Positions 13,277 through 48,409 of a stretch of DNA of 64,000 nt are shown here, piece after piece. Made by a program: the position numbers and the translations under genes. The stretch covers positions 1 through 64,000 of the forward strand of contig DVGK01000160.1 in NCBI GenBank assembly GCA_018712785.1. The letters run 5' to 3'. Origin of the DNA: Candidatus Choladousia intestinavium (GTDB lineage Bacteria > Bacillota > Clostridia > Lachnospirales > Lachnospiraceae). The first letter of the stretch is position 1. Each line of letters opens with the position of its first letter. The notes beneath the pieces are model-generated. The model was not told the DNA's origin. It did not search any database and saw only the letters and a list, made by a program, of their open reading frames with translations.

Positions 13277-14104
13277 ATGATTAAAATAGGATGCCACTTA
13301 TCATCGTCAAAGGGATTTCTGCACATGGGAAAGGAAGCTGCGGCCATTGGAGCCAATACGTTTCAGTTTTTCACAAGGAATCCCAGAGGAAGCAGAGCCA
13401 AAGCTATAGATCCGGAGGATGTCAGGGCCTATCTTGCCTTCGCCGGTGAACACGGGATCGGGCAAATTGTAGCCCATGCCCCCTACACCCTGAATCCCTG
13501 CTCCGCTAGGGAGGAGACAAGAGAATTTGCCCTGGAAACCATGCGGGATGATCTTGAGCGGCTGGAATATCTTCCGGGGAATTATTATAATTTCCATCCC
13601 GGAAGCCATGTGGGACAGGGAATTGAAGCCGGAATCGCGCAGATCGCCGGGACGCTGAATGAGATTCTGGTACCCGGCCAGAGGACGGTCGTACTTCTGG
13701 AGACCATGGCGGGAAAAGGGTCGGAGGTAGGGAGCCGGTTTGAGGAGCTGGAGAGGATTCTGGAGCAGGTAATGCACCCAGAGCTTATGGGAGTGTGTCT
13801 GGACACATGCCACGTTTACGATGCGGGATATGATATCACGGAAGATTTAGAGGGAGTTCTGGATTCTTTTGACAGGATCATCGGTCTGGAGAAGCTGAAA
13901 GCGGTTCATGTAAACGACACAAAGAATCCCATGGGAAGCCATAAGGACCGGCACGAAAAAATCGGCGAAGGCTTCCTGGGACTGGAAGCGCTCCGCCGGG
14001 TTGTACATCATCCGAAGCTGTCCGGCCTGCCCTTCTGCCTGGAAACCCCCAATGAGCTTCCGGGATATGAGGCGGAGATCCGTCTGCTTCGTCAGAAATC
14101 ATAA
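13277..14104 (+). CDS. nfo: deoxyribonuclease IV (AP endonuclease)
   Basis: [68 protein letters not shown]. Confidence 0.95.
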
Positions 14105-15289
14105 CCGTTTTTTCTGGTTTTTCTTTGCAAGAAAGTTATTGATCCGCCCTGTGGGATTGAGAAGATCACTGATGGAACCGTCGTGATTTAACGTATCAAT
14201 CAGCAGGGCGATATATTTACTCATATCGCAGCCTGTATAGTAAGGCTTTTCTAATAGCTCCGGTCTCTGATAGATCAGATTGGTGGTGAGCATGGAATCG
14301 AAAAGCCCCTGCTGGTAGGCGTCGTCGAATTTCTTCAGACCGTTGGTGAAGAGCCCAAAGGTCGCGCAGATAAAGATGCGGGACGCGTGCCGGGACTTCA
14401 GCTCTTTTGCCACCTCCAGGACACTGTCTCCGGAGGAGATCATATCATCCAAGATCACTACGTCCTTTCCGGCTACATCCGAGCCCAGAAATTCGTGGGC
14501 TACAATGGGGTTGCGTCCGCTTACAATGTGAGCGTAATCCCTGCGTTTATAAAACATTCCCATATCCAGGCCCAGAATATTTGCCATATAGATGGCCCGC
14601 TTGGCGCCGCCTTCGTCCGGACTGATAATCAGAAGACGTTCCGGAGAAATCTCCAGGTCGGGAGCGGCCCGGAACAAACCTTTGATAAACTGGTATACGG
14701 GATGAATGGTTTCAAAGCCATGAAGAGGAATGGCGTTCTGGACTCTGGGATCGTGGGCGTCAAAGGTAATAATGTTGTCAACACCCATCTTCACAAGCTC
14801 CTGAAGGGCCAGGGCGCAGTCCAGAGACTCCCGGCCGTTCCTTTTATGCTGGCGGCTTTCATAGAGGAAGGGCATGATCACGTTAATCCGCCGGGCTTTT
14901 CCACCTACGGCCGCGATCACCCGCTTCAGATCCTGAAAATGATCATCCGGGGACATGTGATTCTGAATTCCGAACATGGGGTACGTCAGACTGTAGTTGC
15001 ACACGTCTACCAGAATATAAAGGTCATCTCCCCGGACAGAGTCGTGTATGACGCCCTTGGCCTCTCCGGAACCAAAACGGGGCACTGCAGTTTTCACCAG
15101 ATAGGAATCCCGGGCATAGTGCTGGAGCAGAGGGCTGTTTCTGTGCTCGTGCTCCCGCTCCCTGCGCCACTGGACAATATGGGCGTTGATCTTTTCGCCA
15201 AGCGCCTCGCAGCTTTTCAGAGCAATAATGCCAAGCTCGCCTACGGGAATCGTTTCGAGATTACGTTCAAAAGCAGACTGAAATTCCAT
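14099..15289 (-). CDS. prs: ribose-phosphate pyrophosphokinase
   Basis: [50 protein letters not shown]. Start moved to [10 protein letters not shown] inside the 15346 ORF. Confidence 0.9.
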
Positions 15290-15343
15290 GGTGTAATTTT
15301 TCCTCCATATCTTTAGATTTAAATCAGTGTCCGGGTATGTCTT

Positions 15344-15396
15344 CACACGAACCTCGTGCTGCGTTTCAGCTGCACTCGCTGAGTGTTCACATTATA
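15344..15396 (-). promoter_or_regulatory. prs promoter -10 plus leader element, copy 1 of a sequence shared with 53715-53766
   Basis: Minus strand: TATAATGTGAACACTCAGCGAGTGCAGCTGAAACGCAGCACGAGGTTCGTGTG; TTGACC upstream with 16-bp spacing. Confidence 0.65.
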
Positions 15397-15409
15397 TCAT
15401 AAAAATTTT

Positions 15410-16411
15410 TCAGGTCAAGCGGTGCAGTTTTTTCTGTATGCGGATGTCGTCTCCGATCAGCTTCAGCATAGTATAGTTGCTGGAAATTCTGGAGAAAATC
15501 CGCTCGGAATACGTTTCCGCGAAGGTTTCAAGAGAAAGATTTGTGGAGATCAGGGTACTCTTTCTCCTGAGAATCCGCTCGTTCAGTACGAAAAAGAGCT
15601 GTGAGGTGACAAAGGTGTTCGTCATCTCCGTCCCCAGATCGTCGATGATCAGGAGATCACACTGGAAAATGTGTTCCTCCAGCTCGGAAGTCTCTTCCTC
15701 TCCGCGGCTGAAGGTGTGCTGAGCGAACAGCTCAAATAGCCGGAAGGAAGAAAAATACAGGACGGAATGCGTGGTCTCAATCAGCTCTTTCGCGACACAG
15801 TGAGAGAGAAAGGTCTTTCCCAGCCCCGTATCTCCGTACAGGAAGAGATTCTGAAAATCCAAGTCAAAATCTCTGACAAAATTCCGGCATACAGTCAAAG
15901 CCCGTCCGGCCGTCTGCCTGGCGCTCTGGCCTGTGACGGGATCCTTCAGGGAAGCGGAGTAGTAATCCAGGGAAAAGGTAGAGAAGTTCTCTTCTTCCAG
16001 GATCTCCCGGAGGTTGGACTGCATGTACAGAAGGTCAATGGCTTTCTGCAGGAAGCAGTGGCACTTTCTGGAACCGATGTAACCGGTATCCTGGCAGTCA
16101 GGACAGCGGTAATGAGGGCTGAGATAGTCGGAAGGGTAGCCGGCATCGGTTAAAATCTTTTTTTTACGTGCGGAAAGCTCTGCCAGCCTGGCCCGCAGCC
16201 TGGATTCAGAGCTTTTGAAAGAGGAATTGCCCCCCAGAAGGGTTCTGGCACAGGAACAGCTCTCAGAAGCAATTCGGCGGTCGATCTGAGAAAGCTCCGG
16301 AAAACGGTCATAAACCTCTTCCGTCCGCGCGGAAAGCTCCTGCTGGTTCTTAAGCTGCTGTCTGTGATAATCCCGCATAATTTCATTGTATTGTATATTC
16401 GTCAGTCCCAT
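15410..16411 (-). CDS. DnaI/DnaC-like replicative helicase loader ATPase
   Basis: Walker A LYGDTGLGKTFLSHCVAKEL, Walker B LLIIDDLGTEM, N-terminal Zn-binding YRCPDCQDTGYIGSRKCHC. Confidence 0.9.
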   Translation of the reverse strand: MGLTNIQYNEIMRDYHRQQLKNQQELSARTEEVYDRFPELSQIDRRIASESCSCARTLLGGNSSFKSSESRLRARLAELSARKKKILTDAGYPSDYLSPHYRCPDCQDTGYIGSRKCHCFLQKAIDLLYMQSNLREILEEENFSTFSLDYYSASLKDPVTGQSARQTAGRALTVCRNFVRDFDLDFQNLFLYGDTGLGKTFLSHCVAKELIETTHSVLYFSSFRLFELFAQHTFSRGEEETSELEEHIFQCDLLIIDDLGTEMTNTFVTSQLFFVLNERILRRKSTLISTNLSLETFAETYSERIFSRISSNYTMLKLIGDDIRIQKKLHRLT

Positions 16412-16419
16412 TCTTTACC

Positions 16420-17439
16420 TCATTGATTTAATAGCTGCTTTTCAAGCTGGCCGTAGTCATAATCTCTCTGGGAGAAATTATGGAAACGGTTGGATGAGGC
16501 AGATCTTACGGGTTCTCTTTTCGGCGCTGCTTTTGAAGATTGCTGCTGCGCCCTGCGCTTCAGATCCAGAGCCTTGATGTCTCCCAGAGAGGAGACTTTT
16601 TTTTGGCGCCAGTCCTCGAGAATCTTATTGGCGTACTGGAAATTCGGCTCGTGGGTCTGCCTTACCGTACGGCGGCAGGCCTCCAGAACGATCTCAACCG
16701 AGAAGCCCAGATCGTCAAGCCAGTGCGACATCATTTCCTGCTCAAAGGAAGCAGGACTGCGCCCTTTGATTCCAAAGGCATTTAAAATCGTAAAATAATT
16801 TTTGTTGTACAGGTTCGTCTCTTCCTTTGCCTGAAGCACAGTGGAAATGCCGGCTTCCGCCCAGGAAAGAGCCACCTTCCTCATATAGTGCCGGCTGGAG
16901 GAGCCTTTGGAAATACAGTATTCCAGCAGGTACTCAATCAAATCCGAAGAAAACTTCAGGGAATCATAGTAATAAATAAAATCACTCTGTTCCGAGGAGG
17001 AAAGAGGACGCTGCAGATACTGCTCAGCAATAAAAAAGAGCTGACGGATCTCCTTCTCCTGGGATAATTCCGCGATCCTGGCAGGAGTGGGAGCGTCGTT
17101 CTCCTCTTTCACGGACGCAGGCCGCGCGGGCAGGGAGGTTTCCGAAGCCTTCCCTCCTGGCATCTGAAGAGAAATCTCGGAGAGGTTTCCCTGTCTGTCA
17201 TAGCCAAGACGGAGAAGCTGAAGCTTTTCCCAGTAAATAAGAGCGCGCTGGATATCCTTTTCCGTGTGGTCGAAGGCATCCGCAATGGAAGAAAGGGACA
17301 GATCCCTTCCGCTTCCGGCGCAGCGCAGCAGATAAAGGTATACTTTCACGAATTCTCCGTTGGCATGGGGCATATACTGGTCGATAAATTCGTTCTGAAT
17401 CAGGGTCGCCCCGGAAGAGGCGGCTGTATGTATTTTCAT
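16420..17439 (-). CDS. DnaD domain protein
   Basis: N-terminal FVKVYLYLLRCAGSGRDLSLSSIADAFDHTEKDIQRAL; C-terminal DnaD-like repeats with YxxxILxxW (YANKILEDW). Start MKIHTAASSG. Confidence 0.88.
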   Translation of the reverse strand: MKIHTAASSGATLIQNEFIDQYMPHANGEFVKVYLYLLRCAGSGRDLSLSSIADAFDHTEKDIQRALIYWEKLQLLRLGYDRQGNLSEISLQMPGGKASETSLPARPASVKEENDAPTPARIAELSQEKEIRQLFFIAEQYLQRPLSSSEQSDFIYYYDSLKFSSDLIEYLLEYCISKGSSSRHYMRKVALSWAEAGISTVLQAKEETNLYNKNYFTILNAFGIKGRSPASFEQEMMSHWLDDLGFSVEIVLEACRRTVRQTHEPNFQYANKILEDWRQKKVSSLGDIKALDLKRRAQQQSSKAAPKREPVRSASSNRFHNFSQRDYDYGQLEKQLLNQ

Positions 17440-17469
17440 GTACTTCACTCCCATGTTGTTCTTGGGCTT

Positions 17470-17475
17470 AGTATA
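17470..17475 (-). promoter_or_regulatory. candidate extended -10 of the dnaD-dnaI operon
   Basis: Minus strand TGCTATACT upstream of the dnaD start. Confidence 0.4.
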
Positions 17476-17533
17476 GCATAATTCCCTGAAAATGAGAATA
17501 GGAGAATCAAAGGATTCAAAACCCACATTAAAA

Positions 17534-17551
17534 TGTGGATAATGTGGATAA
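17534..17551 (+). promoter_or_regulatory. two abutting perfect DnaA boxes (TGTGGATAA x2; TTATCCACA on the other strand)
   Basis: TGTGGATAATGTGGATAA read directly, upstream of dnaD. Confidence 0.75.
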
Positions 17552-17666
17552 AAAGTTGACAATAATGAAAAGATCCCTTGAAGAGGCCCGTATTCTGTCG
17601 GATTTTGTAAATATGTTATGTAAATCAACTGTCCACAAAAAAATCCACATGCTTTCACAGAAAAAA

Positions 17667-17696
17667 TGTGAATAAACATGTGGATAATGTGGATAA
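17667..17696 (+). promoter_or_regulatory. three DnaA-box matches: TGTGAATAA (17667) and abutting TGTGGATAA x2 (17679, 17688)
   Basis: Matches to the TTATNCACA consensus (reverse complement) between the murC 3' end and dnaD. Confidence 0.75.
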
Positions 17697-17697
17697 C

Positions 17698-19074
17698 TTA
17701 CTGTCCAAGAAGGGATTCCCCTATTTTTACTACGTCTCCGGCCCCCATAGTTATCAACAAATCCCCGGGGCTGCAGTGTTGAAGAAGAAAATTTTCGATT
17801 TCGTCAAAAGTGGGGAAATACCAGGCGGCTTTTCCCAGCTTTTCCAGCTCCAGGCGGAGCGTGTCCGAGCTGATTCCCAGATCGTCCGTCTCTCTGGCGG
17901 GATAGATTTTCGCAAGTACGATCTTGTCGGCCAGAGAGAGGGCCTTAGCGAATTCCTTCAGAAGAGCTTTCGTCCTTGTGTAAGTATGGGGCTGAAATAC
18001 GCACCAGATCTGTCCGGCGGAGAATTTTCTGGCTGCCTGGAGGGTAGCCTTGATCTCAGTAGGATGATGGGCATAGTCATCTACGATGGTTACGCCGCCG
18101 ATCTCGCCTTTTTTCTGGAAGCGCCGGTCCGTGCCGGAAAAGCCGGCCAGGCCTTTAGCCATAGCTTCAGCGGGAACCCCTAGAAGATCGCCGGCTGCCA
18201 AAGCAGCGGCGGCGTTTAATATATTGTGTTCCCCGGGAACGGACAGGGAAAAATGGCCCAGGCATTCTCCGCCTTTGTACAGATCGAATTCGCCGCAGCC
18301 GGAATTGTGGTAAGAAATTTCGGAGACGTGATAATCGCCGGATTCCAGGCCAAAGGTAATCACGCGGCAGGGAAGATCTCTGACAAGTTCATTCAGATGA
18401 GGGATTCCTTCATATATAATAAGGGTTCCGTCATTTTTCAGACGCTCCGCGAAGAGACGGAAAGAATGACGGATATCATCCAGATCTTTAAAGAAATCCA
18501 GATGATCTGCGTCAATATTCAGAATGATTTCCATTTTAGGGAAAAACTCCAGAAAGCTGTTGGTATATTCACAGGCTTCCGTTACAAAGTACTGCGTATG
18601 GCCAATCCGCACGTTTCCGTGGATAGAGGGAAGAATGCCGCCCACAGAGATGGTGGGATCCAGGCCGCCCTCCAGGAGAATATGCGTCAGCATGGAGGTG
18701 GTGGTAGTCTTCCCGTGGGTGCCTGCCACGGCTACGGGCATTTCATAATTTTTCATCAGCTGGCCCAGAAGCTCTGCCCGGGAGAGCATGGGAATCTGCT
18801 TTCTGGAGGCTGCTATGTATTCGGGATTATCCGGATGAATGGCTGCGGTGTACACAACCACGTCGGTACCCTCCTGTATATTTTCTTCTTTCTGTTCATA
18901 AATAATAGAAGCGCCCAGGCTGGAGAGCCAGTCTGTCAAGGGGGATTCTTTGGCGTCTGAACCGCTGACTGTGAAGCCGCGCTTCAGCAGCACGGCAGCC
19001 AGGCCGCTCATGCTGATTCCTCCGATCCCGATAAAATGAATATGAACAGGACGATTATAGTCGATCTGATACAT
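17698..19074 (-). CDS. murC: UDP-N-acetylmuramate--L-alanine ligase
   Basis: IHFIGIGGISMSGLA, VAGTHGKTTTTSML, VDDYAHHPTEIKATL. Confidence 0.96.
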   Translation of the reverse strand: MYQIDYNRPVHIHFIGIGGISMSGLAAVLLKRGFTVSGSDAKESPLTDWLSSLGASIIYEQKEENIQEGTDVVVYTAAIHPDNPEYIAASRKQIPMLSRAELLGQLMKNYEMPVAVAGTHGKTTTTSMLTHILLEGGLDPTISVGGILPSIHGNVRIGHTQYFVTEACEYTNSFLEFFPKMEIILNIDADHLDFFKDLDDIRHSFRLFAERLKNDGTLIIYEGIPHLNELVRDLPCRVITFGLESGDYHVSEISYHNSGCGEFDLYKGGECLGHFSLSVPGEHNILNAAAALAAGDLLGVPAEAMAKGLAGFSGTDRRFQKKGEIGGVTIVDDYAHHPTEIKATLQAARKFSAGQIWCVFQPHTYTRTKALLKEFAKALSLADKIVLAKIYPARETDDLGISSDTLRLELEKLGKAAWYFPTFDEIENFLLQHCSPGDLLITMGAGDVVKIGESLLGQ

Positions 19075-32212: not shown

Positions 32213-33979
32213 ATGAAACAGATTTTAGATCTGATCAGCCAGGAAGTGATGGAGGCTTTTGAAGCCTGCGGCTACGATCCTTCCTATGGCAGGACAGGGA
32301 TTTCCAACCGGCCGGATCTCTGCGAATACCAGTGCAACGGAGCGATGGCTGCCAGAAAGAAATATGGAAAGGCGCCGGCGGTGATCGCGGCGGAGGTGGT
32401 GGAGAAGCTTAAGGCGAACCCGGCTTTTGAGCTGGCAGAGGCGGTGGGCCCCGGCTTTATCAATCTGAAGGTTAAGGGGGAATTTCTGCAGAAATACCTT
32501 CTTGAAATGCAGGCAGATCCGGATCTGTCTGTAGAAAAGACCAAGAGCACGAAGACCGTTATGCTGGACTACGGCGGACCCAACGTGGCAAAGCCGCTTC
32601 ATGTGGGACATCTGCGTTCTGCTATTATCGGGGAGAGTATTAAGCGGATCGGACGGTTTATGGGACATAAAATGATCGGAGACGTCCATCTGGGGGACTG
32701 GGGACTTCAGATGGGGCTGATTGTGACGGAGCTTAGGCATCGGCAGCCGGATCTTCCGTATTTTGACGATAACTGGAAGGGTGAATATCCCAAAGAGCCG
32801 CCCTTTACAATTTCCGAACTGGAGGAGATCTATCCAAGCGCCAGCGCCAGGTCCAAGGAGGACGAAGCGTACCGGCAGGAGGCTCTGGAGGCTACGAAGC
32901 TGCTTCAGAACGGAAAGCCGGGCTATCGGGCTTTGTGGGAGCATATTTTAAATGTCTCCGTAGCTGACTTAAAGAAAAATTATAAAAAGCTGAATGTGGA
33001 ATTTGACCTGTGGAAAAAGGAATCTGACGCTCAGCCCTACATCCCGGATATGGTAGAGAGGATGAAAGCGGAGGGATATGCCTATGAAGATCAGGGAGCT
33101 CTTGTGGTGGATGTGAAGGAAGAGTCCGATACGAAGGAAGTGCCTCCCTGTATTCTTTTGAAATCAGACGGCGCCTCTTTGTACACCACCACAGACCTGG
33201 CTACGATTGTAGAGCGAATGAAGCTGTTTCATCCTCAGGAGATCATCTATATTGTGGATAAACGGCAGGAAATGCATTTTACCCAGGTATTCCGCTGCGC
33301 CAGAAAGACGGAGCTTGTGGGGGAAGATACGCAGCTTAAGTTCCTTGGCTTCGGAACCATGAACGGGAAGGACGGAAAGCCCTTTAAGACCAGGGACGGA
33401 GGCGTTATGCGCTTGGAAACCCTCATCGGGGAGATCACCGATGAGATGTACAGGAAGATCCTGGAGAACCATGAGGCGGATCCTGGGGAGGCCAGGAAGA
33501 CGGCGGAAATCGTAGGCCTGGCGGCCATTAAATACGGAGACCTCTCCAACCAGGCGTCCAAGGATTATGTGTTCGATGTAGAACGGTTTACTTCTTTCGA
33601 GGGAAATACGGGCCCCTATATTCTGTATACGATTGTAAGAATTAAATCCATTCTGTCAAAATATAGAGAAGCAGGAAGAACGGTGGAGATAGGAGGAATC
33701 CTGCCGCCGGCTGGAGATGTGGAGAAGGATCTGGTGCTGTCTCTGTGCGGCTTTAACAGCGCCATTGCTCAGGCGTACGCGGAGACGGCGCCCCATAAGA
33801 TCTGTTCCTATATTTACGAGCTGTCCAACGCCTTCAACCGCTTTTATCATGAGACGAAAATTCTCTCAGAAGAGGACGAGAGGCAGCAGGAGAGCTGGAT
33901 TCAGATTCTGGAGCTTACCAGGAGGGTGCTGGAGACCAGCATTGATCTTCTGGGCTTCTCTGCGCCGGAGCGGATGTAA
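32213..33979 (+). CDS. argS: arginyl-tRNA synthetase
   Basis: DYGGPNVAKPLHVGHLRSAIIGESIKR, DKRQEMHFTQVF, FNRFYHETKIL. Confidence 0.96.
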   Translation: MKQILDLISQEVMEAFEACGYDPSYGRTGISNRPDLCEYQCNGAMAARKKYGKAPAVIAAEVVEKLKANPAFELAEAVGPGFINLKVKGEFLQKYLLEMQADPDLSVEKTKSTKTVMLDYGGPNVAKPLHVGHLRSAIIGESIKRIGRFMGHKMIGDVHLGDWGLQMGLIVTELRHRQPDLPYFDDNWKGEYPKEPPFTISELEEIYPSASARSKEDEAYRQEALEATKLLQNGKPGYRALWEHILNVSVADLKKNYKKLNVEFDLWKKESDAQPYIPDMVERMKAEGYAYEDQGALVVDVKEESDTKEVPPCILLKSDGASLYTTTDLATIVERMKLFHPQEIIYIVDKRQEMHFTQVFRCARKTELVGEDTQLKFLGFGTMNGKDGKPFKTRDGGVMRLETLIGEITDEMYRKILENHEADPGEARKTAEIVGLAAIKYGDLSNQASKDYVFDVERFTSFEGNTGPYILYTIVRIKSILSKYREAGRTVEIGGILPPAGDVEKDLVLSLCGFNSAIAQAYAETAPHKICSYIYELSNAFNRFYHETKILSEEDERQQESWIQILELTRRVLETSIDLLGFSAPERM

Positions 33980-46897: not shown

Positions 46898-48409
46898 ATG
46901 TATGAAATCATGAGTTCGGATGAGGCCATCCGTCTGATCCGCGACGGTGACTGTATCTGCGTAAATTCTTTTGTAGGCATCGAAAATCCGGTGGAGCTTC
47001 ATGAAGCGATTTACCGGAGATATCAGAGAATGCAGTCCCCTAGGCATCTTACCATTATTTCCAGCGCCGGCTTCGGAGTCTGGGATGAGGAGCGCAATGC
47101 GGAGGGCTATATCCGGGAGGGAGCAGTGGATCGGCTGATCTGCGGACATTTCGGGGCCATGCTAAGCACCAAGAAGCTGGTGCTGGAAGATCGCTTCGAG
47201 GCATACAATCTGCCCCTGGGCTGTATCTCGCATGCCATCCGGGCTCAGGCGGGCGGTCTGCCGGGAGCGCTGTCCAAGGTAGGGCTTGATATCTTTGTAG
47301 ATCCCAGGAGGGAAGGGCCGGGCATCAACCGGATTTCTATTGATGATTCGCTGGTAAAATATGTGGAAGTGGACGGAGAGGAATTTCTCTATTATAAGCT
47401 GCCGAAAATTAACGTAGCCCTGATTAAGGGAACCGCGGCGGACCGGAAGGGGAATATTTCCTTTGATGATATGTTCATGTCCGGAGACGCCCTCTCCATC
47501 TGTCAGGCGGTGAAGGCCAATCGGGGTAAGGTGATCGTGCAGGTAGACCGTCTGGTGAACACACCTTCACGGCCCAGAAACGCCATTATCCCCGGCTGTC
47601 TGGTGGACGCCATTGTGGTGGCGGAGCCGGAGGAGCGCAATGAGGCTTACACATCCCTTACCGGAAGCTTTGAGATTCCTTATGAAGACTGGAGCAAGTG
47701 GAATGAAAAGATCGATACGGCTTCCGCGAAACAGCTCCAAAACAGTGTGGTAGGCAATGTTATCGGCCGGAGGGCGGCCCAGGAGCTGCGGGTGGATGAC
47801 ATTGTGAATATCGGCATCGGGCTTCCGGAAATGGTATCCAGATATACCAGAAAAAGCGGAATGCTGGATCAGGTCACGCTAACAGTGGAGTCAGGAGGCA
47901 TCGGCGGTTTCCCTGTGTCCGGAGAGGTTTTCGGAGCCATGATCGGCGCTTCTTCGGTCTATGATATGGCCAACCAGTTCGACCTATATGACAACGGCGG
48001 GCTTGATATCTGCTTTATGGGAGCCCTGGAGGTGGATAAAGAGGGGAATGTCAACGCCCACAGAGGCCCAGGGGCCTTTGCCGGCATCGGAGGCTTCGCC
48101 AATATTACGGCAAAAACACCGACAGTAGTGTTCTGTATGACCTTCAATACAAAAGGGCTGGAAGTTTCCCAGAAAAAAGGCGTGGTAACCATCCAGCGGG
48201 AGGGATTGGTACCTAAATTTGTGGATAAAGTAAGGAGCGTCAGTTTTTCCGCCAAGCGAGCCATAGCCAATGGGCAGAAGGTGCTGTATGTGACGGAGCG
48301 CTGTGTGTTCCGGCTGACTCCCAAGGGGCTTAAGCTGATCGAAGTCTATCCGGGAATCGATGAGGAAAAAGAGATTCTGGCGCTGCTGCCCTTTGAGGTG
48401 GAGAGATAG
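46898..48409 (+). CDS. acyl-CoA:acetate/3-ketoacid CoA-transferase (fused alpha-beta)
   Basis: IRDGDCICVNSFVGIENP, NIGIGLPEMVSRY, LTVESGGIGGFPVSGEVFGAMIGA. Confidence 0.92.
   Translation: MYEIMSSDEAIRLIRDGDCICVNSFVGIENPVELHEAIYRRYQRMQSPRHLTIISSAGFGVWDEERNAEGYIREGAVDRLICGHFGAMLSTKKLVLEDRFEAYNLPLGCISHAIRAQAGGLPGALSKVGLDIFVDPRREGPGINRISIDDSLVKYVEVDGEEFLYYKLPKINVALIKGTAADRKGNISFDDMFMSGDALSICQAVKANRGKVIVQVDRLVNTPSRPRNAIIPGCLVDAIVVAEPEERNEAYTSLTGSFEIPYEDWSKWNEKIDTASAKQLQNSVVGNVIGRRAAQELRVDDIVNIGIGLPEMVSRYTRKSGMLDQVTLTVESGGIGGFPVSGEVFGAMIGASSVYDMANQFDLYDNGGLDICFMGALEVDKEGNVNAHRGPGAFAGIGGFANITAKTPTVVFCMTFNTKGLEVSQKKGVVTIQREGLVPKFVDKVRSVSFSAKRAIANGQKVLYVTERCVFRLTPKGLKLIEVYPGIDEEKEILALLPFEVER

Follow-up and report, generated by a model that had tools for sequence, protein, structure and literature searches.

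That DnaA recognizes TTATCCACA is well established, and in B. subtilis nrdR-dnaB-dnaI may respond to this protein. Class I activators occupy sites about 70-100 bp before the transcription start and depend on helical phase. In B. subtilis DnaA directly activates sda and represses other operons, and the top in vitro DnaA regions given in the accessible part of that report exclude dnaB, dnaD and dnaI (PMC4447404). In E. coli a DnaA dimer occupies double boxes with a gap of 2-3 bp (PMC11317965), and the replication targets reviewed for DnaA are nrdAB, dnaN and, in Caulobacter, the genes for the DnaB helicase and DnaQ (PMC8203912). In C. difficile the closest DnaD homologue is CD3653, and how DnaA is regulated is stated as unknown (PMC7561715).

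The locus described here, upstream of dnaD- and dnaI-like genes in a 64,000-nt window (the whole stretch of Candidatus Choladousia intestinavium DNA that was analysed), shares something with each of several known systems. Like the B. subtilis sda promoter and the clusters at ywlC, yydA, ywcI/vpr, gcp and trmE, it is a multi-box DnaA cluster outside oriC; the B. subtilis clusters differ in their target genes, and the accessible parts of the sources describe no cross-species helical register for them. The E. coli double boxes (nrdA, polA, purH, DARS, datA) share the 3-bp gap seen here between boxes 2 and 3, whereas the main pairs here abut (0 bp), both boxes being perfect, and two such pairs stand in register with a promoter. 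In the Caulobacter regulon, too, predicted DnaA boxes lie upstream of a replication gene (dnaB helicase, dnaQ; PMC8203912), but the target is the helicase rather than its loader, the phylum is different and no register is known. Helical-phase dependence is common to this locus, the lac and ara loops and class I activator sites, the in vivo repeat estimated from lac loops being 11.08-11.6 bp (PMC1762422); unlike those systems, the candidate protein here is a replication initiator, and its phase dependence is a prediction from sequence. The openly accessible literature (subscription papers lay outside the search) holds no description of DnaA boxes or DnaA control at dnaD-dnaI of Lachnospiraceae. 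As a DnaA target dnaD-dnaI is likely, but not certain, to be new, and the helical register of the box pairs with the dnaD promoter is new here.

The 18-mer TGTGGATAATGTGGATAA, which the earlier note took to occur exactly twice, each copy consisting of two 9-mers with zero spacing, does so in the window, starting at 17534 and 17679, and the fifth box placed by that note at 17667 is TGTGAATAA, at 17667-17675, box 3 of the cluster. All five read TTATNCACA on the minus strand, the sense strand of dnaD, on which the order is murC, distal pair, 3 bp, third box, 115 bp, proximal pair, promoter, dnaD, dnaI and prs (Table 1). The gap that contains them, thought to be of about 260 bp, measures 258 bp, between a murC stop at 17698 and a dnaD ATG at 17439, and the distal pair begins one base past the murC stop codon. 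The candidate -10 suspected near 17470 is the minus-strand TATACT at 17475-17470, with TG before it, which would place the transcription start near 17463, and the resemblance of the two genes to DnaD and DnaI is upheld by their domain matches. Since prs has a promoter-like sequence of its own, at 15391-15418 and overlapping the end of dnaI, it need not depend on the dnaD promoter. No Rfam family matched between 17300 and 17900, hence no described RNA element is present there.

Table 1. Features of the murC-dnaD-dnaI-prs region, listed in minus-strand order.
Feature	Coordinates	Strand	Remarks
murC, upstream neighbour	17698..19074	-	Pfam Mur_ligase domains
Distal DnaA box pair, TTATCCACA x2 abutting (0 bp gap) = TTATCCACATTATCCACA	17679..17696	-	exact match
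Third DnaA box TTATTCACA, 3 bp from distal pair	17667..17675	-	exact match
murC intrinsic terminator	17637..17684	-	-18.7 kcal/mol, z -6.0
TTNACATAA motif, here TTTACATAA, candidate binding site	17616..17624	-	conserved in relatives
Proximal DnaA box pair, TTATCCACA x2 abutting = TTATCCACATTATCCACA	17534..17551	-	begins 76 bp upstream of -10 hexamer
dnaD promoter TTCTCA-N17-TATACT, extended -10 TG	17470..17498	-	-35 17498-17493, -10 17475-17470
dnaD-like gene, ATG 17439 behind GGGAG	16420..17439	-	Pfam DnaB_2 twice, NCBIfam DnaD_dom; start codon inferred from sequence
dnaI-like helicase loader	15410..16411	-	AAA+ loader
prs-like PRPP synthetase, next gene	14099..15346	-	own promoter-like TTGACC-N16-TATAAT

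Boxes are concentrated at this point of the genome. The window contains 7 against 1.0 expected, a number reached by none of 100 shuffles, and 5 of the 7 fall within 163 bp; the isolated TTATCCACA boxes at 33253-33261 and 48220-48228 are compatible with background. The genome-wide scan for clusters that had been proposed as a check, carried out on this metagenome-assembled genome (MAG; 2.97 Mb, 160 contigs, 90% completeness), counted 87 boxes and two clusters only, the dnaD locus and C142:20231-20319. The latter represents a second recurrent box-pair locus, present once per genome in the 11 genomes checked and in some cases carrying two pairs at a distance of 97 bp. In 5 of the 11 it is close to hpf (ribosome hibernation factor), and mostly to secA too; in other genomes its neighbours are mecA and a secreted protein gene, and in the genus of the window the gene of a large membrane protein.

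No DnaA C-terminal domain was found in the 90% complete MAG, from whose assembly the dnaA/oriC contig appears to be missing. The DnaA encoded by a genome of the same genus is of the standard type: its best match is 8btg (E 2.8e-141), its domain IV bears the GNRDHSTV signature, and TTATCCACA boxes lie on both flanks of the gene. In the nine genomes of relatives that have both on one contig, the dnaD locus is 0.1-0.67 Mb away from dnaA; it does not occupy the position at dnaA/dnaN that oriC has in this lineage, and dnaA has separate boxes.

Conservation upstream of dnaD orthologues, on which the earlier note had staked its proposal, was assessed in 184 usable murC-dnaD spacers drawn from 61 named loci, 30 family-search loci and 100 fetched regions, a sample tilted to closer DnaD proteins, to which 20 more distant ones, still mostly box-bearing, were added. 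Together they contain 536 exact boxes, of which 499 are dnaD-sense. At least one box is present in 172 of the 184, an outcome that favours the proposal, and at least two in 144; the element can shrink or disappear, since 28 spacers keep a single exact box and 12 lack any. In the first 164 spacers, 498 exact matches to TTATNCACA (465 dnaD-sense) stand against 3.9 in shuffled sequence and a single one when the motif is reversed, and among same-strand neighbours 143 abut exactly while 27 stand 12 bp apart from start to start, as do the distal pair and third box of the window. Of 164 loci examined, 108 have 0-2 nt between the murC stop and the start of their first box. The setting recurs as well: murC is kept upstream in 167 of 171 loci, and 60 of 61 have a dnaI-like gene downstream in the same orientation. 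Across 61 loci the 500 bp upstream of dnaD contain 209 boxes, against 22 in the remaining 487 kb. The spacer DNA is A+T-rich (median GC 0.36). The exact 18-mer is found in 111 of 199 near-complete genomes of the family, usually 1-3 times, with none for the reversed control among the counts listed.

Outside the family the picture is different. Sixty DnaD-like loci from other Clostridia families, chosen as the best DnaD-domain genes whatever their linkage to dnaI and from a sample without Bacilli, yielded 7 boxes in 96 kb of upstream DNA, compared with 3 matches for the control; the two boxes of one locus stand 72 bp from each other and more than 500 bp from the ORF. Since no promoter-linked cluster lies upstream of any of the 60, the box element appears, within this sample, as a trait of Lachnospiraceae.

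The dnaD promoter is itself recognizable throughout the family: a motif TTCTCW-N16/17-TGNTATAMT, located independently of the boxes, is found in 165 of 181 spacers, and in these 165 loci none of 494 boxes overlaps or lies downstream of the core promoter (-35/-10). The raw histogram of all box-to-box distances was set aside, as its peaks could be 9-bp sidebands of tandem boxes; instead, each locus contributed one distance, between the best proximal 18-mer and the best distal one, the latter lying no more than 30 bp from the murC stop. The choice of best pairs, like the calling of -10 hexamers, was automatic. Kinship was handled by collapsing neighbouring loci of equal distance on a tree of murC and DnaD, although the collapsed groups are not fully independent. 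The distances found (77, 86-88, 98-100, 110, 120, 131, 140-145, 150-157, 162-167, 174-176, 183 and 189 bp) advance by about 11 bp per step from 77 to 189. Over 61 collapsed groups the register has R 0.60 with a best period of 11.1 bp (5-20 bp scanned; p <= 2.5e-4, the floor set by 4000 draws), a period that agrees with the in vivo repeat from lac loops (PMC1762422). Counting each distinct distance once gives R 0.53-0.58 (p 5e-5, again the floor that the number of Monte Carlo draws imposes). In 20-29 phylogenetically independent pairs the differences bunch at 9-11, 20-22, 44-46 and 66-67 bp (p about 0.001), an earlier and smaller test of this kind having been weaker (p 0.01 at 11.0 bp). The 9-bp ambiguity created by tandem boxes was dealt with by restricting the analysis to isolated pairs, which have no third abutting box: R rises to 0.84 at 11.15 bp in 18 groups.

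The same holds with respect to the promoter. Distances from the pair to the -10 bunch at 67, 76, 84-88 and 96-97 bp, with R 0.77 at a period of 10.6 bp in 75 groups (p 2e-4, at the floor; 0.001 for independent pairs), and the distal pair is in register with the -10 as well, with R 0.60 at 11.15 bp in 89 groups (p 2e-4, at the floor). Two controls from the same spacers, -10 to start codon (R 0.16, p 0.15) and distal pair to start codon (R 0.17, p 0.27), show no phasing. The window itself has 145 bp between pairs, 76 bp from the proximal pair to the -10 and 221 bp from the distal pair to the -10. Several short spacers place the distal pair itself at 84-86 bp from the -10, which would fit an element whose minimum is a single in-phase pair.

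Other words recur in these spacers. The TTNACATAA motif is present in 77 of 181, against 3-9 for controls, mostly about 62 or 73-76 nt past the murC stop and helically phased with respect to the -10 (R 0.57); it could be the site of another protein or a weak reverse-strand DnaA box. Two Spo0A-like words, TTCGACA and TGTCGAA, occur in 29 and 12 of the 181 spacers, where control words occur in 2-7; they are a possible hint of sporulation input to the loader operon, but too slight a basis for a claim.

The boxes keep a fixed strand, stand in register with the promoter and avoid its core, a combination that points to a protein facing RNA polymerase from upstream. A TTATCCACA-binding protein, almost certainly DnaA, thus seems to act on the loader promoter in a helix-face-dependent manner, and direct transcriptional control of dnaD-dnaI by DnaA, whatever its sign, is on this evidence highly probable. 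Our main reading, to which we assign a probability of about 0.6, is that the dnaD-dnaI promoter is a DnaA-responsive element with class-I-like activation and an in-phase auxiliary distal site. On each abutting box pair DnaA would sit as a dimer or a short oligomer. The proximal pair, upstream of the -35 and on a fixed helix face relative to RNA polymerase at about 67, 76, 87 or 97 bp before the -10, would most likely activate a promoter with a weak -35 and an extended -10 through a class-I-like contact; the distal pair and third box would form a second site of the same register that adds cooperativity, either by cooperative oligomerisation or, probably, through a DNA loop of 7-17 turns. Active DnaA, rising before initiation, would then raise the amount of loader, which DnaA-opened origins need. 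From the pattern of sites we infer DnaA occupancy, activation over repression, looping and the role in the cell cycle. In its fullest form, which we put forward only tentatively, DnaA is a face-of-helix class I activator whose auxiliary site is contacted via a DNA loop, the whole being a feed-forward link from initiator to loader, invented in Lachnospiraceae and kept through whole-turn insertions and deletions.

That the effect is activation, rather than repression, is what we lean towards, because the pair is placed as in class I activators, with its centre about 70-100 bp ahead of the expected start, and the -35 hexamer is poor. Repression by looping is the main rival. It, too, could use upstream sites in phase with the promoter: DnaA bound at both pairs would close a loop or trap RNA polymerase, so that dnaD-dnaI would be shut while DnaA is abundant and induced once DnaA is occupied at other sites or replication stress sets in. 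The register data suit this reading too, two in-phase sites look like those of loop repressors, and DnaA of B. subtilis represses several operons besides activating sda (PMC4447404). We nevertheless consider this unlikely, for in 165 loci no box lies on the core promoter or leader, where simple repressors would have theirs, and the pair nearest the promoter is mostly 84-97 bp from the -10, as expected of a class I activator. The earlier note had proposed either direct regulation or titration, and it is the first that the helical register and its evolutionary maintenance favour, since titration alone predicts no register. An origin-proximal, high-affinity sink that buffers free DnaA with no promoter role, as proposed for the B. 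subtilis clusters or E. coli datA, would suit a locus that is among very few clusters per genome and lies within 0.1-0.67 Mb of dnaA in the nine single-contig genomes, and removal of six B. subtilis clusters does cause early initiation (PMC5295017). But such a sink requires neither promoter register nor family-wide murC-dnaD linkage, both of which are observed; we regard it as improbable, and any titration could be a side effect of a regulatory element.

The two remaining explanations concern the boxes as such. The second distal box doubles as terminator sequence of murC: its TCCACA, at the base of the 5' arm, pairs with a TGTGGA that is followed by a T-run. This arrangement recurs in 107 of 181 loci if near-matches to the box are included; the inner stem has pairs changed on both sides among the 107, and the arm is an exact TTATCCACA in 68. 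Such double use as box and terminator arm accounts for the position of the distal pair right at the murC stop. That TCCACA repeats are a mere by-product of murC transcription termination is very improbable, however: the overlap accounts for neither the first distal box nor the proximal pair, for which this explanation is refuted, and it leaves the TTA prefix and the promoter register unexplained as well. Least probable of all is a second replication origin or initiation site, which boxes in A+T-rich DNA might bring to mind; relatives have oriC-type boxes around dnaA, and neither near-uniform box orientation nor register with a promoter is a feature of origins.

Little is known in Firmicutes of how the supply of helicase loader is coordinated with initiator activity. 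The dnaD-dnaI element, read as a site of class-I-like activation by DnaA, suggests that the initiator has direct control over how much of its downstream partners is made. It makes contact between DnaA and RNA polymerase, and looping by DnaA, directly testable, and its variants across the whole family are an evolutionary record of helix-face-dependent action on the loader promoter. For the gut Lachnospiraceae, it offers a conserved reference for the DnaA regulon.
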